21,866 nt of DNA from IMG/VR virus record IMGVR_UViG_3300008120_008125, positions 1 to 21,866 of that record; one strand, given 5' to 3'. Source of the DNA: a virus. The translations under genes were made by a program, and so were the position numbers. The notes under the pieces are model-generated. The model did no database searches and was not told where the DNA came from. It was given only the letters and a program-made list of their open reading frames with translations. Each line of letters begins with the position of its first letter. Position 1 is the stretch's first letter. Shown one piece after another: positions 1,558 to 17,222 of this stretch.

Positions 1558-2955
1558 ATGCGAGCCGAAGATCTACAACCAACCAATCCCAGCACACCTG
1601 TTATCTACCTAGATATGGATGGTGTACTGGCTGATTTTTTCCACGAATATGCCAAACTAGCCGGCGTACCCCAAGATGAGCGTGGCCGTCACGACTATCA
1701 TAAGATTCCGGTTGATTTGCGGGAGCCTGTGATTGATCAAATGCGTGGCACTGACTTTTTTTACAAGCTGCCTAAGTTTCCCACAGCAGACACACTGGTT
1801 GACATGGTAGTCAAACGCTATGGCAGCTATGACATTTGCTCCAGTCCCTTGCGTGGAGATCATGCCAACAGCGGTCATTGGAAACGTGAATGGATCAAGG
1901 ATCATCTTAATCCTTATCCTAAGAAAATCGTAATTACTCCTAGAAAAGAAAAATACGCTACACAACCTGATGGCACTCCTAACGTGTTGATTGACGATCG
2001 TGGTGACAACATACGCCGCTGGCAGTCAGCCGGGGGTTTTGGTATCAAGTATCAGGCCGACGAAGACTCTCTAGATGTAGTGCGCGATGGCTTAGATGAA
2101 TTTGATCAACTGCTTAGACAACGTGAACTGACTGAATCAGTAGACGGATCGCATAAAAAAATTATCAATCATTTTATTGATTGGGTCTACGACAAGAAAA
2201 AAATCAAAGCTGATCGGCCAAACATCAAGTTCCAACAGCACAAGGAAGGACCAGATCAGCATCGCACCGGCTACTATGAACCTGATACCAATGTCATGTG
2301 GGTTTACACCGGCAATCGCAATCTTGTAGACATACTACGCACAGTGGCACACGAGCTAGTACATCGCAAACAGGGCAGCGAAGGCAGAATCAAGGTCAAG
2401 AGCCCACCAGGTAGTAAACTCAAAGGTCCACCCAGCACAATATTCAGTTTTGGCGACGAAGACACCGAACATGAGTATATCAAAGATCTGGAAAAAACCG
2501 GATTGACTACCACAGACATTGATCCTGTAGATCCTAATCAACCCGCAGGTATGAAACGCATGAAAACAGATCCTACGTTTAACGTGGATGAAGCTGCTGT
2601 AGATGCCGGTGATTTAGTGGATGTCTTTATTAGAGGCAAACATCGCGGACAAACTGTAACCAAGTTGGTCACTAGAGGATTTCCAAATCGTGCCATACCT
2701 ATGCTTGTTCGAGCTTTAGAAAAAAAATACGGCGTTAACCCTGGCGCTATTGTTTATGGTCCCAGTCGTAAAGTTGACGAAAATTTTGCCGACGGCAAAG
2801 TCAAAGGCAAGAGCCGTCCAGGGCGTGTGAAACGTGCTGGTGCCAGTTGTTCGGGTTCAGTGACCGATCTACGTGCCCGTGCCAAAAAATACGGTGGTGA
2901 GCGAGGACGTATGTATCATTGGTGTGCAAATATGAAATCAGGAAAAAACAAATGA
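1558..2955 (+). CDS. Fusion: HAD-like 5'-nucleotidase domain, HExxH metallopeptidase-like domain, basic Cys-containing C-terminal module
   Basis: This 465-residue protein has at least three parts. Residues about 14-185 form a HAD phosphatase of the NT5C 5'(3')-deoxyribonucleotidase type: motif I DMDGVLADF (D19, D21), a Ser motif near SSP (95-97), a candidate motif III Lys near TPRKEKYA, and acidic motif IV IDDR (D146, D147). Residues about 198-310 resemble a small zinc metallopeptidase with HELVH at 265-269; the third zinc ligand is not obvious (acidic/His candidates in DTEHEY, 302-307). The C-terminal 58 residues are basic with two Cys and a YHWCANMKSG end (about 453-462), a module I believe recurs on other aquatic-phage proteins. 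The start MRAEDL follows a degenerate late box with no clear ribosome binding site. The stop overlaps the next start (ATGA). A nucleotide-scavenging phosphatase fused to a peptidase is unusual; substrates are unknown. Confidence 0.85.
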   Translation: MRAEDLQPTNPSTPVIYLDMDGVLADFFHEYAKLAGVPQDERGRHDYHKIPVDLREPVIDQMRGTDFFYKLPKFPTADTLVDMVVKRYGSYDICSSPLRGDHANSGHWKREWIKDHLNPYPKKIVITPRKEKYATQPDGTPNVLIDDRGDNIRRWQSAGGFGIKYQADEDSLDVVRDGLDEFDQLLRQRELTESVDGSHKKIINHFIDWVYDKKKIKADRPNIKFQQHKEGPDQHRTGYYEPDTNVMWVYTGNRNLVDILRTVAHELVHRKQGSEGRIKVKSPPGSKLKGPPSTIFSFGDEDTEHEYIKDLEKTGLTTTDIDPVDPNQPAGMKRMKTDPTFNVDEAAVDAGDLVDVFIRGKHRGQTVTKLVTRGFPNRAIPMLVRALEKKYGVNPGAIVYGPSRKVDENFADGKVKGKSRPGRVKRAGASCSGSVTDLRARAKKYGGERGRMYHWCANMKSGKNK

Positions 2956-3356
2956 GAGATTTAATCAACATGGTCGAAGCAGTGGCCAAAGGCTGTCCTC
3001 CAGCAACGCAAAACATTGACCTAAATCTTAAAAATCGTCAGAAGGCTATAGATGAATATCACTACGGCCCATTGAATCCCAACGAACCCAACGAAGAGTA
3101 CTGGCAAGAACTAGCAGACAAATGGAACACCAGCGACATAGACAGTGTGAAACAAAATCGCTGTGGCAACTGTGCTGCATTTGACATCTCAGAAAAAATG
3201 CTGGACTGTATTGCCAGTGGTATTGGTGAGGAGCCCGGCTCGGATCCACACGATACTGTAGATGCAGGCACCTTGGGCTATTGCAAATTTTTGAAATTCA
3301 AATGTGCTGCCAAAAGAACCTGTGATGCCTGGGTTGAAGGTGGCCCAATTACCTAA
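2952..3356 (+). CDS. Cys-rich phage protein of unknown function (134 aa)
   Basis: ATG at 2952 overlaps the upstream stop (ATGA), which suggests translational coupling; an upstream in-frame start at 2919 would lie inside the preceding gene and is less likely. The N-terminal half is helical and charged. The C-terminal half holds six Cys: CGNC (about residues 71-74), one in MLDC, one in GYC, one in FKC and one in RTCDAW. The pattern CxxC-x13-C ... C-x6-C-x5-C could bind zinc or an iron-sulfur cluster, or form a compact metal-stabilised fold; no spectroscopic or structural evidence exists here. I recall similar unnamed Cys-rich proteins in aquatic T4-like phages but cannot name a function. Confidence 0.75.
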   Translation: MRDLINMVEAVAKGCPPATQNIDLNLKNRQKAIDEYHYGPLNPNEPNEEYWQELADKWNTSDIDSVKQNRCGNCAAFDISEKMLDCIASGIGEEPGSDPHDTVDAGTLGYCKFLKFKCAAKRTCDAWVEGGPIT

Positions 3357-3364
3357 GGAATATC

Positions 3365-3715
3365 ATGAGAGCGCAAGAATTTACAAAAAACAAAACTAAA
3401 AATGAAGCAGAGATGCCCTGGAAGGATGCAGTGGACGCAGGTGCCATGACCACACAGCAAGGAGCAAAGGTTGCTGCTAGTGACATATCCCAGGCAATCA
3501 ACGATCTATCTACTACTAGTAGTCAACTCAGCAAAGAAATATCCAGTCAGCAGGCAGCAGCAGCATCTATACCTTCAAACGTGACTGTGACCAGTGTCAA
3601 ACCAGACGGCAGCTGGACCGGTCGAGAAAATCCTGCTACAACAAAAATTGGTCCGATTTCCATAACCAAGGGCACAGGCAATCCTGCTGCTGGTGGCGCT
3701 GTCAAACGCAAATGA
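3365..3715 (+). CDS. Ser/Thr/Gln/Ala-rich small protein with MRAQEF N-terminus
   Basis: ATG at 3365 is preceded by AAGGAA (3355-3360), a good Shine-Dalgarno. The 116-residue product opens with MRAQEFTKNKTKNEAEMPW, has a predicted helical middle rich in Ser, Gln and Ala (DISQAINDLSTTSSQLSKEI), then a Pro/Gly/Thr-rich tail. There is no enzyme motif, membrane segment or secretion signal. The N-terminus resembles that of the HAD fusion (MRAEDL), and one possibility is a T4-type capsid-targeting or scaffold-core peptide, such as those removed by the prohead protease after Glu. That remains speculation. Function not recognised. Confidence 0.7.
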   Translation: MRAQEFTKNKTKNEAEMPWKDAVDAGAMTTQQGAKVAASDISQAINDLSTTSSQLSKEISSQQAAAASIPSNVTVTSVKPDGSWTGRENPATTKIGPISITKGTGNPAAGGAVKRK

Positions 3716-3721
3716 TATAAT

Positions 3722-4423
3722 ATGAAATTTCAAGACTTAGTTTCACGCAACGTAGCTTACCACAAAGCCCTAAATCCAAAAGCATGGGATGGTGATAATT
3801 TACGACCGGAAGTTAGAAATGCTCTACTCAAGATAGCCAAACAGTTTGTTGCCTACCTAGAAATTCCAAACTTCGAAGTGTTGGACATAGTGCTAACTGG
3901 CAGCATGGCCAACTACAATTATACTCGCTATAGTGATTATGATTTACACGTTATAACCAGATACAGTGATCTAGATTGTGACGATCTAGCCGAAGCTTTT
4001 TATCGTGCCAAGAAAACACTCTGGAACAATGAACATGACATCACTATCTATGGTAACGAAGTTGAACTCTATGTGGAAGACATAGACGAACCTCCAGTCA
4101 GTGCCGGTGTGTATAGTGTGATCAACGATCGTTGGTTGAAACAGCCCGGTTACCAACCTCCAGAAATTGACGATCGCGCAGTTAGTCTAAAAGTGCGTGA
4201 CCTAATCAAACAGATTGAAGTGGCTGTGGAATCAGCCGATGATCCTGAGGATTTGGCTCGCATCAAAGACAAACTACGTCGCATGCGTCGCAGTGGACTT
4301 GATACCGGCGGCGAATACAGCACAGAAAATCTAGCGTTCAAAATCCTGCGCAACATGGGCTACCTAGATCTGCTCAATAATGCTTACACGCAGCAGCAGG
4401 ATCAGCAGTTCAGTCTCAGATAA
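3722..4423 (+). CDS. Nucleotidyltransferase-fold protein (Pol beta superfamily)
   Basis: The 233-residue protein carries the Pol-beta-type signature LTGSMANYNYTRYSDYDLHV: GS at 60-61 and the Asp pair D72/D74. The expected third carboxylate falls at VELYVED, where Glu (E115) is in the Asp position. Residues 170-230 are helical and basic (RIKDKLRRMRRSG), plausible as a nucleic-acid or partner-binding tail. The family transfers nucleotides to RNA, protein or small molecules; the acceptor cannot be read from the sequence. The start ATG at 3722 lies only six bases after the upstream stop, with AT-rich DNA and no strong Shine-Dalgarno before it, so coupling to the upstream gene is likely. The N-terminus MKFQDLVS is reminiscent of the MRAxEF starts nearby. 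Confidence 0.85.
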   Translation: MKFQDLVSRNVAYHKALNPKAWDGDNLRPEVRNALLKIAKQFVAYLEIPNFEVLDIVLTGSMANYNYTRYSDYDLHVITRYSDLDCDDLAEAFYRAKKTLWNNEHDITIYGNEVELYVEDIDEPPVSAGVYSVINDRWLKQPGYQPPEIDDRAVSLKVRDLIKQIEVAVESADDPEDLARIKDKLRRMRRSGLDTGGEYSTENLAFKILRNMGYLDLLNNAYTQQQDQQFSLR

Positions 4424-4447
4424 AAATCCCGGTGTAAAAAACTAGTC

Positions 4448-4455
4448 TATAAGTA
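4448..4455 (+). promoter_or_regulatory. Late-like promoter box (TATAAGTA)
   Basis: TATAAGTA differs from the T4 late box TATAAATA at one position. It lies in the 72-base gap upstream of the histone-like gene. A transcript from here would start near 4461 and include a short GC-rich imperfect hairpin (about 4458-4476) and the ribosome binding site AGGAG at 4486-4490. Confidence 0.5.
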
Positions 4456-4495
4456 TTGTCGCGGCCCTAAGCCGACTTTACCTATAGGAGATTGT

Positions 4496-5422
4496 ATGGC
4501 AACCAAAAAACCTGCCAAAAAAGCGGCTAAACCTGCCGCAAAGAAACCCGCTGCTAAAGCCAAAAAGCCTGCAGCCAAAACAGCAGCCAAAAAGCCTGCT
4601 GCTCGTAAAGCAGCCGAAGTAGTAGTAGAACAGGAATTAGATTTCAAACCAGTGGGCAGTTTCCTCAGCATGCATGCAGCTATGGATCCCGAAGCCCAGG
4701 CAGCAATGATTGCTGAACAGACCAAGAGAGCCTTTGACGTAGAAGCTTACGTACAGTACAACGTGGCCCAAACACAGGTTGCTCGCTCAATCGTAGAAGA
4801 AAACGTCACCGACGCTATGCAGTCATGGGCCATCAACGCAGGCGGCAACAGAGAAATGATCATGCGTACCACAGACGATGTGTATCGCAATCGACTTATG
4901 ATGTTGAACCTGCTCAAGCCTGAGAATCCTGTTGAAGCAGCGTTCCAAGAGTCAATGATCAACAAGACCAAATTGGAATACCTACAGCATCGTAACAGCA
5001 TGAATCGTCGCATGGCCGACATTGCACATGACATGGCCAATGCTATCAAAGCTATTGGTACAGCCAGCGAAAAGTTTTATCATGCCAACGAAGAAATGGC
5101 AGCATTTATCAACGATACTGCTGATGAAAATGCTGTGTGGTTTGATGGTAGCTTGAAAAAAATGATGCGCGAAGCCACCAACGTCACTAACGATCAGCGT
5201 ATTCAACACACCATGGAAGTTAGTCAGCTGTTGGCCAATGATGCCCAATCGGGCCGTGCTAGAATCCGTGAAGTGGCCGAGTTTGCACAGAGCCTAGGCG
5301 ACAGTCTACAGGAACTGCAAGAGTCGGGCAATGAACTACGCGAAGAAGTAATCAACATTCGTGAAAAGATTGATGCCAGCCAGCGTAGAATTGCCGATAC
5401 TATTGTTGGTAAAAAACGGTAA
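4496..5422 (+). CDS. Protein with histone H1-like Lys/Ala/Pro tail and long helical body
   Basis: ATG at 4496 follows AGGAG (4486-4490). Residues 2-40 are almost only Lys, Ala and Pro in repeats of the KKPAAK type, as in eukaryotic histone H1 C-tails and bacterial H1-like proteins, and would be disordered and bind DNA. Residues about 45-308 are long amphipathic helices with heptad-like spacing, ending in a coiled-coil-like stretch (LGDSLQELQESGNELREEVINIREKI). There are no Cys or enzyme motifs. The body is much longer than in simple H1-like proteins, so the protein may be a structural component with a DNA-binding tail, or a DNA-packaging or nucleoid-remodelling factor; both are inference. The late-like promoter favours a virion or assembly role. 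Confidence 0.8.
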   Translation: MATKKPAKKAAKPAAKKPAAKAKKPAAKTAAKKPAARKAAEVVVEQELDFKPVGSFLSMHAAMDPEAQAAMIAEQTKRAFDVEAYVQYNVAQTQVARSIVEENVTDAMQSWAINAGGNREMIMRTTDDVYRNRLMMLNLLKPENPVEAAFQESMINKTKLEYLQHRNSMNRRMADIAHDMANAIKAIGTASEKFYHANEEMAAFINDTADENAVWFDGSLKKMMREATNVTNDQRIQHTMEVSQLLANDAQSGRARIREVAEFAQSLGDSLQELQESGNELREEVINIREKIDASQRRIADTIVGKKR

Positions 5423-5425
5423 ATA
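5418..5425 (+). promoter_or_regulatory. Possible degenerate late-promoter box (GGTAAATA)
   Basis: GGTAAATA matches 6 of 8 positions of TATAAATA and contains the stop codon of the upstream gene. Six bases separate it from the GTG start at 5432, so a transcript would be essentially leaderless. The evidence is weak. Confidence 0.25.
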
Positions 5426-5431
5426 GTTTTT

Positions 5432-5686
5432 GTGTACGTAATTCAGTTTAGTACTCGAGTGTTTACTGGGATAACTGGACAAACTAGAAACAGACTGCGT
5501 AAAACTCGTATACTGAATCGATTACGTGCAATTAAACGTCAACACCCCACGTTGGTATTCACAGTTCAGCGTGGGGTGAATTACATCACAGTTGAATTTG
5601 CGAATCAACTTGATTTTACCATGTTTGCTTTAATGTGGCCTATAAACCATCCTTCCTGGCAAGAGGTTACTAATGATATTTCCTGA
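5432..5686 (+). CDS. Small basic hypothetical protein (84 aa)
   Basis: The ORF starts with GTG at 5432, ten bases after the previous stop, without a visible Shine-Dalgarno. The product is basic in its first half (TGQTRNRLRKTRILNRLRAIKRQH) and ends in a beta-like, aromatic segment (YITVEFANQLDFTMFALMWP). This looks like a small nucleic-acid-associated or structural protein, but no family is recognised. A 9-bp inverted repeat lies inside the gene. The last 14 bases overlap the next ORF. Confidence 0.55.
   Translation: MYVIQFSTRVFTGITGQTRNRLRKTRILNRLRAIKRQHPTLVFTVQRGVNYITVEFANQLDFTMFALMWPINHPSWQEVTNDIS
5543..5578. repeat. 9-bp perfect inverted repeat (potential hairpin) inside a small ORF
   Basis: CACCCCACG at 5543-5551 is mirrored by CGTGGGGTG at 5570-5578 with an 18-base loop. 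There is no T-run after it, so it is not a standard intrinsic terminator. Confidence 0.7.
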
Positions 5687-5945
5687 CTTACCAAAACGTC
5701 CAGAATTCTGGAACCCACCACCGATTGAACCACCTGCAATCGTACAAGAAGCACAGCCAAAAAAGATTAATGCGGAAGAATGGTGGATTGCACACGGACT
5801 AGCACCAGAATCACAACAGACAGTATCACTGCGGTCAGGACCAATTGATTGGTTTGGCAGAGATGCCTGGGAGTTTTACTTTTTGTGTGCTGGAATGATT
5901 GCCTGGATAGCCTACTGGTATGGAGTGCATAGAGGAGCGTGGTAA
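5673..5945 (+). CDS. Small Pro-rich protein with a C-terminal membrane segment
   Basis: ATG at 5673 follows AAGAGG (about 5660-5665) and overlaps the previous gene by 14 bases. The 90-residue product has a Pro-rich N-terminus (LPKRPEFWNPPPIEPPAIV), a charged middle, and a hydrophobic aromatic stretch (FYFLCAGMIAWIAYWYGV, about residues 67-84) followed by HRGAW. That fits a tail-anchored small membrane protein with a cytoplasmic N-terminus. Many phages encode such proteins for lysis timing or superinfection control, but nothing here identifies which. Family not recognised. Confidence 0.65.
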   Translation: MIFPDLPKRPEFWNPPPIEPPAIVQEAQPKKINAEEWWIAHGLAPESQQTVSLRSGPIDWFGRDAWEFYFLCAGMIAWIAYWYGVHRGAW

Positions 5946-5951
5946 TACGCT

Positions 5952-6599
5952 ATGCAACAGGTCGTACCTTTATCTATCCAACAAGATTGGTTGCCGATAT
6001 ATCATGCGTTTGATCAAGTATGGGCCAATAGGCAACGATATGGCGTAATCAATCGCCAAGAACACATACACTGTTACGAAATTCGTCGCCGAGACGGCAA
6101 TGCTCTAGTTTGGAAAGACCCTAGTTTATTTTGTTGGTCCAAAGAACAGTTAGCTCAGACCTATACCAACGACGATTACAACTTCATGTACGCACACTGG
6201 AGTGGTCCAGACTTCGAACAACTTATTCCCTGGCATCAAGATTTATTAGATTACCTTGAACCGCTTCAACCAGATCGGGTCAAACTACAGATTTTTACCG
6301 GACGACTTCCTAGACACATCGACGGTGGCGGTCCAACTAGAAGAAATGGCCACGAATGTAATCTACTACACGTGGTTGACTGTCAAGATCCGACTGCTGC
6401 TACCTACAGCCAAAGTATTAATGATAAATCTCATGTGATCCGCACTAGGAGTAGTCCTAACCTTAGTTTTTTGCTAGATACCAGTCAATGGCATTGGGTA
6501 AGGAACCAAGGACTTAGAATTACATTGAGATTGAGTCTGGCAGTGCCCTTTGAACAGGCACAGTCCTGGTGGTCCAAACAGTCGACTCTGTCATTATGA
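5952..6599 (+). CDS. 2OG-Fe(II) oxygenase-like protein (Asp/Asn hydroxylase-like)
   Basis: The 215-residue protein fits the double-stranded beta-helix oxygenase plan: GRLPRHIDGG gives the HxD iron ligands (H122, D124), a distal His follows in QWHWV (H181), and R189 in LRITLRLSLAVPF is a candidate 2-oxoglutarate-binding Arg. Layout and size resemble aspartyl/asparaginyl beta-hydroxylase-like proteins, which hydroxylate protein side chains or small molecules; the substrate is not predictable. The first possible in-frame start is ATG 5952, because the upstream gene's stop (5943-5945) is in the same frame; the purine-rich AGAGGAG lies about 16 bases upstream, further than usual. It is the first of three 2OG-oxygenase-like genes in the window. 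Alternative: a cupin without oxygenase activity. Confidence 0.7.
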   Translation: MQQVVPLSIQQDWLPIYHAFDQVWANRQRYGVINRQEHIHCYEIRRRDGNALVWKDPSLFCWSKEQLAQTYTNDDYNFMYAHWSGPDFEQLIPWHQDLLDYLEPLQPDRVKLQIFTGRLPRHIDGGGPTRRNGHECNLLHVVDCQDPTAATYSQSINDKSHVIRTRSSPNLSFLLDTSQWHWVRNQGLRITLRLSLAVPFEQAQSWWSKQSTLSL

Positions 6600-6625
6600 A
6601 TTGGTATATCTGCTACAGAAAAGTC

Positions 6626-6654
6626 TAGACCATGCTAGACAAATAGTGTATAAT
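6626..6654 (+). promoter_or_regulatory. Sigma-70-like promoter (TAGACC-N17-TATAAT)
   Basis: A perfect -10 (TATAAT, 6649-6654) is preceded at 17 bases by TAGACC, a 4/6 match to the -35. It lies in the 107-base gap before the DsbA-like gene and is the only credible promoter there. It would suit early or middle expression by host RNA polymerase. Confidence 0.55.
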
Positions 6655-6706
6655 CAAGCATTGAGCAAATTCAAATTTTGGATTTGCCTTACTATTTGGA
6701 GAAAAT

Positions 6707-6967
6707 ATGCAAAATCGATCTTTCAGTGCCGAGCAAAAAGCCAAACTGACACAGATAATCAATGAAGGTATGCAGGTAATGATGGAGGTTGAAACCTTAA
6801 ATGGTGGACTCAACGATACCATCAAGGCTGTGGCAGAAGAATTAGAAATCAAACCTGCTATATTGAAAAAAGCAATCAAGCTAGCGCACAAAGCCGAGTT
6901 TGGTCGTGAACAGCAGGATCATGAGTTATTAGAAACTATTCTTACCACAGTAGGCAAAACTTTGTAA
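6707..6967 (+). CDS. dsbA: DsbA-like double-stranded DNA-binding protein (T4 DsbA family)
   Basis: ATG at 6707 follows GGAG (6698-6701). The 86-residue helical protein ends with VAEELEIKPAILKKAIKLAHKAEFGREQQDHELLETIL, which parallels the C-terminal half of T4 DsbA (a DELGV...LLALYHKDNRD-type segment, recalled rather than aligned here). T4 DsbA is a small dsDNA-binding protein that acts at late promoters; it is unrelated to the disulfide oxidoreductase of the same name. The N-terminal half is an amphipathic helix rich in Glu, Gln and Lys. Its placement just before the replication block and the presence of late-type promoters in the window fit a role in late transcription. The stop abuts the next ATG. 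Confidence 0.6.
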   Translation: MQNRSFSAEQKAKLTQIINEGMQVMMEVETLNGGLNDTIKAVAEELEIKPAILKKAIKLAHKAEFGREQQDHELLETILTTVGKTL

Positions 6968-7633
6968 ATGTTTCAACGCAGAGCCATTCCAATTTTTCCA
7001 CACGGGGGTCCTAAGAAATTCCCTAACAAACAGTTGCAGGGTTTGCTATGCACTATGCCTTGGAACAGTATAGGTGTTGGGCTAAATGGTGATGTATTTC
7101 TATGCCAGTGTGAAGCTTGGTTACCTACCAGTATTGGTAACATTTGGGATGACGATTTAACTGCATTGATGCAATCAGATACTGCCAAGGCTATTAGACG
7201 CAGTATCACTGAAGGAACTTATGAATACTGTAACGAACAGGTTTGTTATATCTTACAACAGAAAAATTTACATAGTCTAGACCATATCTATCCGCTGGAC
7301 CTAAGACAGGTAATGCAGGACGAACATGGTTGGCTGATGCCGACACATATCATGTTAGCTTTAGATCCTACCTGTAATCTAAGCTGTCCTAGTTGTCGGA
7401 CGGAAGTCACTAAAAAAGTCGAAGACGATCAGGCTAAAATTGATCATATTGCTCAGAGACTAGTAGATAACCTTTTTAGTCGTGGTACTGAACAGCAGGT
7501 CAATGTGACGGTTAGCACCAGTGGTGAATTATTTGCCAGTGATGTATTGATGCACATGGTCAATCAAATTGATTTGAGTCTAATACCACGCTTGAATCTA
7601 CAGATACAGACCAATGGCCTACTATTTAGTTGA
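6968..7633 (+). pseudogene. Radical-SAM protein with SPASM-like N-terminus, truncated (probable N-terminal part of a disrupted gene)
   Basis: ATG at 6968 directly follows the upstream stop. Residues about 26-95 hold a SPASM-like Cys region (CTMPWNSIGVGLNGDVFLCQC, then YCNEQVC) that would bind auxiliary clusters. Residues 130-145 carry the radical-SAM cluster motif CNLSCPSC (C136, C140, C143; Cx3Cx2C). Residues 178-220 look like strands of the barrel (VNVTVSTSGELF, LNLQIQTNGLLF). The frame then stops at 221 residues, whereas relatives with this layout usually run to about 350-400 residues, so over half of the barrel is missing. An ORF in another frame starting within the last codons (7614-7787) reads like a radical-SAM C-terminus. 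I read the pair as one gene with an internal deletion plus frame change. A shortened functional protein is possible but less likely. Confidence 0.7.
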
Positions 7634-7787
7634 ATATACTCGTTTGACAAACTGGCATACTTGGTCATATTTAGAGTTCAAAATGCACGACGTGTTAGAT
7701 CCAAACAATGTAAAATATAAAACAGCTCACAAAGTGCTTAGTGACTGTATCAATCGACCTAGCACATGGCACAATTTTGTGTTATAA
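7614..7787 (+). pseudogene. 57-aa ORF, probable C-terminal remnant of the radical-SAM gene
   Basis: An ATG at 7614 inside the end of the radical-SAM frame opens a 57-residue reading frame in a different phase. It begins MAYYLVEYTRLTNWHTWSYL, continues through VLDPNNVKYKTAHKVL and ends in NFVL. The RLTNWHTW...VLDPNN...KVL pattern resembles the last strand and helix of SPASM/radical-SAM proteins (an RxxNWGT...HPxHPxF-type ending). No Shine-Dalgarno precedes it. It may be a decayed C-terminus or, less likely, an independent small gene. It ends 24 bases before the polymerase start. Confidence 0.5.
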
Positions 7788-7811
7788 TTACTCTAACAAC
7801 AAGGAACAACA

Positions 7812-10400
7812 TTGAGTTATGTAGACGCCCTATTTGATCGAGAACATGATCGAGTACACATAGTAGAACGTCGCAACGGCGAACGTGTGTACCAGGAGTA
7901 TCCTGCAACCTACATATTCTACTATGACGATCCCAAAGGCAAGTTTCGTAGTATCTACGGCCTGCCAGTCAGCAGGTTTGCTACACGCAACAGCAAAGAA
8001 TTTCGCAAAGAGCAACGCATACATTCGGGCAAACAGTTGTACGAGTCTGACATCAATCCGGTGTTTAGATGTCTGGAAGAAAACTACAAAGGCCAAGATG
8101 CGCCACGCCTACACACAGCATTTTTCGATATTGAAGTAGACTTCGATCCTGAAAAAGGCTACAGTCGTCCCGACGATCCTTTCAACAAAATTACTTCGGT
8201 TACTGTGTATCTAGACTGGTTGGATCAACTGGTCACATTGGCTATTCCGCCACGACACATGAGCATGGACACTGCCAAAGAGATTGCTGCTGAATTCACA
8301 AACACATTCATGTTTACTGAAGAAAAAGATCTCTTAGATAACTTTCTGAATTTGATTCAAGACGCTGATGTACTCAGTGGGTGGAATTCAGAAGGCTACG
8401 ACATTCCCTACATGATCATGCGCACTACCAAGGTTCTCAGCAAAGACGACACACGTCGTTATTGTCTTTGGAATCAGTTGCCCAAGCAGCGTACATTTGA
8501 ACGTTTTGGTGCAGAAAATATCACGTTTGATTTGATCGGTCGGGTGCATATGGACTATATGCAACTGTATAGAAAATATACCTATGAAGAACGACACAGC
8601 TACAGTCTTGATGCTATCCTCGAGTACGAAGGTCTAGAAGGCAAGACCAAGTTTGAAGGTACTCTGGATCAACTGTACAATCAAAATTTCAAGACGTTCT
8701 TGGAGTATAACAGGCAGGACGTGAATGGCATTGCGCAAATGGACAAGAAATTAAAGTTCTTGGACTTGGCAAATACGCTGGCACATGAAAACACAGTTTT
8801 GTTGCCCACCACAATGGGCGCAGTGGCAGTGACAGAACAGGCCATTATCAACGAAGCACACGAACGTGGTATGGTTGTGCCCAGTCGCAAAGAACGACTC
8901 AGTGATGAGGATACACAGGCAGCAGGTGCCTATGTGGCCTATCCCAAAAAAGGCATGTGGGATTTTGTAGGCAGCATTGACATCAACAGTCTGTATCCAA
9001 GTGCTATTCGTGCGCTGAACATGGGACCAGAGACCATTGTGGGACAGCTCAGGCCGACCATGACTGATCGCCTGATCAAAGAACGCATGACATCTGGACA
9101 GAGCTTTGCCGCCGCCTGGGAAGGACTGTTTGCCACACTAGAGTATACTGCTGTGATGGAACAACAGCGCGGCACTGAGATTACCATTGACTGGGCCAAT
9201 GGCGATGAATCTGTACACTCGGCCGCTGAAGTATGGCGTATCATATTTGACAGCAATCGTCCTTGGATGATTTCGGCCAACGGTACCATATTCACTTATG
9301 AAACAGAAGCCGTGATTCCGGGTCTGCTGAAACGTTGGTATGCTGAACGTAAACAGATGCAGGCCAAACTCAAAGAATGCACTACCAAAGAAGATGAAGA
9401 ATACTGGGACAAGCGTCAGCTGGTCAAGAAGATTAATCTAAACAGTCTTTATGGTGCTATTCTAAATCCCGGCTGTCGCTTTTTTGACAAACGAATTGGA
9501 CAATCAACCACACTGACTGGGCGCAGCATTGCCAAACACATGGATGCTTATGTCAATGAATGTATAACAGGCAAGTATGATCATACAGGCGAAGCAATTA
9601 TCTATGGCGATACTGAAATAGCTGTACAACTTTATGACAGTATAGCCGAGCAGGTGAATCAGAGCTTCCCGGGGTTTATGGAACAGGCTTTTCATGTGCC
9701 CCGAGACATGGGTTCAGTGATCCGAGGTGGTCGTGAAATTGTGGCCACACGTGGATTGTTCATTACCAAGAAACGCTATGCTGTGCTTTACTATGACAAA
9801 GAAGGCAAGCGAGCCGATGTGGAAGGACGTCCTGGCAAAGTCAAAGCCATGGGCTTGGATCTCAAACGTTCAGACACGCCCAAGGTAATTCAAGACTTTC
9901 TAAGCAGTGTGCTCAACGAAGTACTCAATGGTGCTGGCAAAGAAGAAATCGTAGAAAAGATTCGTGCGTTCAAATTTGAGTTCAAGGAACGTCCAGGATG
10001 GGAAAAAGGATCACCCAAACGTGCCAACAACATCACACAGTATGCTAAAAAGGAAGAACGAGAAGGTCGTACCAACATGCCCGGGCATGTACGTGCCAGT
10101 CTCAATTGGAACACACTCAGACGCATGAACAGCGATAACTACAGTATGCAGATTGTCGATGGCATGAAAGTCATTGTGTGCAAGTTGAAACACAATCCGC
10201 TGAACTGGACCAGTATTGCCTATCCAACTGATGAACTACATTTGCCGCAATGGTTCAAGGAGCTTCCTTTTGATGATACTGAAATGGAATCTACCGTCAT
10301 TGACGGCAAAATAGACAATCTATTGGGTGTACTAGATTGGGATCTAGCCAGTGCAACACATACAGAAAATACTTTTCAATCGTTGTTTAGCTTTGAATGA
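7812..10400 (+). CDS. 43: Family-B DNA polymerase, T4 gp43-like, with an apparently damaged motif C
   Basis: The TTG at 7812 follows AAGGAA (7801-7806) and gives MSYVDALFDRE. Exonuclease motifs are complete: FFDIEVD (D106, E108), GWNSEGYD (N192, D197) and YNRQD (Y299, D303). Polymerase motif A is SIDINSLYPS (D390) and motif B is KKINLNSLYGA (539-549). Motif C should read YGDTDS followed by a beta strand; here residues 598-606 read YGDTEIAVQ (codons 9603-9629). The second catalytic Asp (equivalent to RB69 D623) is missing or replaced by Glu. The following EIAVQLYDSIAEQVNQSF fits sequence that I recall lying some 25 residues further on in aquatic relatives, so an in-frame deletion is likely; the length (862 versus 898 residues in T4) agrees. 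The C-terminus SLFSFE resembles the T4-type clamp-binding tail. The stop overlaps the next start (ATGA). Confidence 0.95.
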   Translation: MSYVDALFDREHDRVHIVERRNGERVYQEYPATYIFYYDDPKGKFRSIYGLPVSRFATRNSKEFRKEQRIHSGKQLYESDINPVFRCLEENYKGQDAPRLHTAFFDIEVDFDPEKGYSRPDDPFNKITSVTVYLDWLDQLVTLAIPPRHMSMDTAKEIAAEFTNTFMFTEEKDLLDNFLNLIQDADVLSGWNSEGYDIPYMIMRTTKVLSKDDTRRYCLWNQLPKQRTFERFGAENITFDLIGRVHMDYMQLYRKYTYEERHSYSLDAILEYEGLEGKTKFEGTLDQLYNQNFKTFLEYNRQDVNGIAQMDKKLKFLDLANTLAHENTVLLPTTMGAVAVTEQAIINEAHERGMVVPSRKERLSDEDTQAAGAYVAYPKKGMWDFVGSIDINSLYPSAIRALNMGPETIVGQLRPTMTDRLIKERMTSGQSFAAAWEGLFATLEYTAVMEQQRGTEITIDWANGDESVHSAAEVWRIIFDSNRPWMISANGTIFTYETEAVIPGLLKRWYAERKQMQAKLKECTTKEDEEYWDKRQLVKKINLNSLYGAILNPGCRFFDKRIGQSTTLTGRSIAKHMDAYVNECITGKYDHTGEAIIYGDTEIAVQLYDSIAEQVNQSFPGFMEQAFHVPRDMGSVIRGGREIVATRGLFITKKRYAVLYYDKEGKRADVEGRPGKVKAMGLDLKRSDTPKVIQDFLSSVLNEVLNGAGKEEIVEKIRAFKFEFKERPGWEKGSPKRANNITQYAKKEEREGRTNMPGHVRASLNWNTLRRMNSDNYSMQIVDGMKVIVCKLKHNPLNWTSIAYPTDELHLPQWFKELPFDDTEMESTVIDGKIDNLLGVLDWDLASATHTENTFQSLFSFE

Positions 10401-14880: not shown

Positions 14881-16805
<1,925 letters not shown>

Positions 16806-16874: not shown

Positions 16875-17222
16875 ATGATGAGCTTGATCAAAGAATTCAA
16901 ACAACTAACACCAGGCGAAAAAATAACTATTGCCTGGACTACTGTGTCATTGTTATTTGCAGCGTTTCTAATATTAGTTGGTATTACTGCTACTCGCGGC
17001 GAAGACATTGAATACACTAAACAAAGATTAACCGTCATTGAACAGCGTCTAAATAGCATTGACCAACGTATTGAAATTGCTAATAGTCGTAGCCTTGAAC
17101 TAAGAGAACAAACAGATAGGCTATCAAAAGCTGTAGAAGAGGTATCTAAACATGATGTATCGCAGGACTACGGAATTGCTGAAATAAACAAAGCATTACA
17201 GGAAAAGAAACCATCAAAGTAA
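16875..17222 (+). CDS. Small membrane-anchored coiled-coil protein (115 aa)
   Basis: ATG 16875 (or the adjacent ATG 16878) sits within a few bases of the predicted transcription start and has no Shine-Dalgarno, so the mRNA appears leaderless or nearly so. A short N-terminus with one hydrophobic segment (TIAWTTVSLLFAAFLILVGITA, about residues 18-39) is followed by a coiled coil with clear heptads (YTKQRLTVIEQRLNSIDQRI, then LELREQTDRLSKAVEEVSKH, about 47-93) and a Lys-rich end. Which side of the membrane the coil faces cannot be decided by eye. Early expression of a membrane coiled-coil protein would suit host takeover, superinfection exclusion or lysis control (spanin-like), but no family is recognised. 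Confidence 0.75.
   Translation: MMSLIKEFKQLTPGEKITIAWTTVSLLFAAFLILVGITATRGEDIEYTKQRLTVIEQRLNSIDQRIEIANSRSLELREQTDRLSKAVEEVSKHDVSQDYGIAEINKALQEKKPSK

Follow-up and report, generated by a model that had tools for sequence, protein, structure and literature searches.

The absence of the second catalytic aspartate of motif C from the family-B DNA polymerase encoded on IMG/VR virus record IMGVR_UViG_3300008120_008125 is probably a defect confined to this single record rather than a feature of the phage. We assign a probability of roughly 80% to this reading, with sequence reconstruction or library preparation as the likeliest origin of the gap. An artefact is the most likely explanation because near-identical contigs from elsewhere are intact at the affected site, and because the adjoining gene contains a second, unexplained gap. 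Hereafter, the window refers to the whole stretch of DNA that was analyzed (positions 1 to 21,866 of the record), and the features discussed are collected in Table 1.

Table 1. Window features affected, or suspected to be affected, by internal gaps.
Feature	Position (nt)	Strand	Remarks
Nucleotidase plus SprT-like ORF	1558..2955	+	Third gap suspected directly behind HELVHRKQ, ~2375-2400 (near 2378)
SPASM/radical-SAM ORF	6968..7633	+	Cut short by frame-shifting 260-nt gap at 7624 (1-nt ambiguity)
Out-of-frame C-terminal remainder of radical-SAM gene (YTRLTNWHTWSYLEF...)	7635..7787	+	~50 residues
Family-B DNA polymerase ORF	7812..10400	+	862 aa, TTG start; relatives about 885 aa
Motif C region, YGDT/EIAVQ (slash, junction)	9603..9629	+	72-nt gap junction at 9614-9616, 2-nt ambiguity (GA)

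Judging by its domains, its motif A Asp, and its motif B, the ORF is a T4/RB69-like family-B polymerase. Profile searches with Pfam identify both DNA_pol_B (PF00136, E=1.1e-36) and the exonuclease domain (PF03104, E=5.5e-18), and the best match among solved structures is RB69 gp43 (1clq, E=1.2e-57). The preliminary description had considered the exonuclease motifs and motifs A and B to be intact, and indeed all are readable in the translation. These include FDIEVDF, GWNSEGYDIPY, and YNRQDV of the exonuclease, DINSLYPS of motif A, and KKINLNSLYG of motif B, along with KKRY. The exonuclease domain, motifs A and B, and KKRY are thus shared with RB69/T4 gp43. More distantly comparable are the polymerases of Sinorhizobium phage Phosso and Agrobacterium phage Atu_ph07, which are 44-49% identical to the window protein.

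Motif C is where the window copy departs from this pattern. The catalytic aspartate triad of RB69 consists of D411, D621, and D623 (PMC3792054), and D623 is highly conserved across family B (PMC3799440). In the window polymerase, residues 598-606 read YGDTEIAVQ, where residue 598 is the Y encoded at 9603. Compared to RB69/T4 gp43, the window copy lacks the equivalent of D623 and the next 23 residues, whereas its near-identical siblings (described below) are complete and carry both Asp residues in YGDTDS.

The extent of the loss becomes clear from comparison with the best 80 polymerase loci in IMG/VR, which derive from uncultured aquatic tailed phages and are 77-83% identical to the window polymerase over its full length. 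Unlike the window, all 80 contain YGDTDS, followed by 22 more residues and then by the equivalent of window E602. By this count, precisely 24 codons (72 nt) are missing from the window, starting with the codon for the second of the catalytic Asp residues in motif C. Within this stretch, the opening D and S, as well as F, A, G, M, and W, are invariant in 80/80 relatives, and in an alignment with RB69 gp43 (1clq) the missing segment falls on GDTDSIYVSADK.... The loss of the second Asp, and of the strand after it, as noted in the preliminary description is therefore borne out by translation and by alignment, and its size estimate for an in-frame deletion (about 70 bases, or about 25 residues) was close to the actual value. 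In the comparison with the relatives, the Glu that follows GDT in the window corresponds to the first residue beyond the missing block, and does not replace Asp. Degenerate scans of IMG/VR for any shortened motif C yielded, among the matches listed, no locus with homology to polB.

The most informative comparison is with contigs that are nearly identical to the window. One of these (L353; IMGVR 3300042691_015657) was found by searching with another gene (window 3722-4423), and it aligns with window 2665-9918 at 99.85-100% identity in three pieces. The breaks between the pieces are at window 7624 and 9615/9616, and L353 has an additional 260 nt at the former and 72 nt at the latter. A scan with an exact pattern, chosen to end where the polymerase gap has its left edge so that gapped and intact alleles alike could be matched, recovered L353 again together with two further contigs (3300031857_020169 and 3300032050_006917). 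The three siblings stem from three different datasets, none of them that of the window. Across the polymerase gap site they share 99.5-100% identity with the window, and all of them possess both extra segments. Their motif C is normal (IYGDTDSCYFTAYP...). The preliminary description had proposed that reads showing the missing segment would indicate an assembly error; the segment has now been seen, although in sibling contigs and not in reads.

The left-edge pattern revealed no gapped contig in the viral collection and none in genome_contigs, in searches from which records very near the window may have been left out. Because such records could thus be hidden, the failure to find gapped siblings carries less weight than the finding of intact ones. 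The window also differs from all three siblings at positions 7963, 9113, and 9596, which all lie between the two confirmed gaps. At 7963 the window encodes Leu and the siblings encode Gln, an unusual change, and Leu is absent among the relatives read at this position. These three window-only positions hint that the middle segment may have originated in another molecule or strain, but they are too few to insist on this.

The 260-nt gap, which the preliminary description had not noticed, resides in the gene that immediately precedes polB, 2 kb upstream of the polymerase gap. The SPASM/radical-SAM gene is continuous in relatives and in L353, in contrast to the early stop in the window (Table 1). 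The existence of a second gap in one contig favors a faulty record.

A third gap is suspected in the SprT-like gene, a label that rests on the HELVH motif and on homologues, as this part of the ORF has no Pfam profile hit. In nine homologues, HELVHRKQ is followed by a helix that carries the expected third metal ligand (e.g., GSPIEQEADAVAGY). This helix is absent after HELVHRKQ in the window, and a segment that is located further downstream in the long relatives comes in its place. An exact scan returned no sibling contig covering ~2378, and the comparison at this site is therefore with homologues only. Natural domain shuffling within the nucleotidase/SprT-like ORF is a possible alternative to a third gap.

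Several other explanations for the unusual motif C merit consideration. A natural and functional variant, wherein Glu takes the place of the second Asp, would be in keeping with the open reading frame and the intact state of all other motifs. However, siblings and relatives have this Glu directly after the block that the window lacks, the window has also lost the strand and 22 more residues, and siblings at 99.5-100% identity have an ordinary GDTDS. The siblings contradict a Glu variant, and we reject this explanation as having almost no chance of being correct. We also reject, as highly improbable, the idea that the gap is programmed or is a scar left by the excision of an element (e.g., an intein or a homing endonuclease), because no relative carries an insert at this site, although a more distant phage has an apparent intein at motif C. 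The latter, Klebsiella phage KP13-7, shows that polymerases of this group do harbor mobile elements at motif C. Nevertheless, there is no insert at motif C in the 80 relatives or the three siblings and no remnant of an element in the window, whose breakpoint after GDT is one codon off the KP13-7 site (YGD/TDS). Moreover, excision would not be expected to take out 24 conserved codons, and the second gap in the neighboring gene is unrelated. Thus, a Glu variant, a lineage trait, and a programmed gap can all be rejected, because three near-identical contigs carry the full segment and 80/80 relatives have GDTDS.

The main alternative to an artefact is a real but very recent deletion variant, meaning a defective phage genome or a minority strain that is missing parts of the radical-SAM gene and polB, although we consider this unlikely. 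Such a phage would be replication-dead alone, and it would either have been maintained by co-infecting intact siblings or have been sampled before its loss, a scenario that we judge to be unlikely to the same extent. Short-overlap deletions occur in nature, the remaining window sequence is clean and only about 0.1% from the intact siblings, and these siblings exist and could complement a defective genome. On the other hand, at least two deletions within 2 kb are needed, one of which removes a catalytic Asp required for replication, and no trace of such a variant is present in the three other datasets. It is less probable still that a defective genome with linked polB and radical-SAM deletions circulates in the source population while intact siblings supply the polymerase. 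Among the four meanings offered in the preliminary description, assembly error is now the best supported, and a dead polymerase also remains; a Glu variant and a programmed gap or scar do not survive the finding of three siblings with GDTDS at an uninterrupted site. An error in assembly or library preparation is more likely than a recent dead variant.

The KP13-7 polymerase (OP617745.1, 350060-355420) is an unusual arrangement in its own right. In this member of Alcyoneusvirus, PolB is split at motif C (YGD/TDS) into two genes annotated as "hypothetical proteins." The two halves have intein-like ends, and between them lies a gene for a 325-aa protein that is probably a homing endonuclease. This polymerase is homologous to that of the window and is also interrupted at motif C. 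However, in KP13-7 the apparent intein halves flank the split and TDS is kept at the start of the second extein, whereas in the window there is no insert and residues are lost.

The junctions themselves resemble chance breakpoints. The overlaps are 2 nt at the 72-nt gap and 1 nt at the 260-nt gap, and random breakpoints of equal size reach such overlaps in about 18% (2 nt) and 45% (1 nt) of cases or more. No repeat over 6 nt was found near either breakpoint. Given these short overlaps and the lack of longer repeats nearby, deletion by recombination between direct repeats was rejected. If an artefact is responsible, repeat-free joins would have dropped 260 nt and 72 nt from the window contig. 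One possible route is a low-coverage assembly built from template reads that were chimeric or had internal deletions, and a faulty local join is an alternative. A search of the literature for comparable deletion artefacts returned nothing specific.

In favor of an artefact are the presence of both segments in three contigs from other datasets, the lack of any gapped contig among those found, the second, frame-breaking gap and the suspected third, the chance-level overlaps, and the window-only differences between the gaps. Counting against it, repeat collapse during assembly does not classically produce repeat-free joins, the 72-nt gap preserves the reading frame (1 in 3 by chance), and the remaining contig looks sound wherever it can be compared. 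Whereas the two gaps, the intact siblings, and the absence of long repeats from the junctions are directly visible in the sequences, we infer that the loss did not occur in a virion but arose during library preparation or assembly.

In the right half of the contig (11656 to 21230), most genes with relatives in the set of fetched loci align over their full length, and window 16875-17222 has only a partial match among these loci. This half also includes a full GroES/GroEL-like gene pair (window 14881-16805) in what is a phage contig. Neither gene of the pair was matched in the flanks of the fetched relatives.

The IMG/VR record thus has at least two internal gaps that its siblings do not share. 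For this reason, the proteins called around 7.6 and 9.6 kb in the record, and probably also those around 2.4 kb, are unfit as evidence for gene loss or for new domain fusions. Searching for a near-identical sibling contig provides a cheap test for similar cases. With regard to the phage, the apparent catalytic novelty, namely a polymerase whose motif C lacks the second Asp, is removed from consideration. As judged from the sibling contigs, the T4/RB69-type family-B polymerase that this phage population encodes is ordinary and complete, with GDTDS in place.
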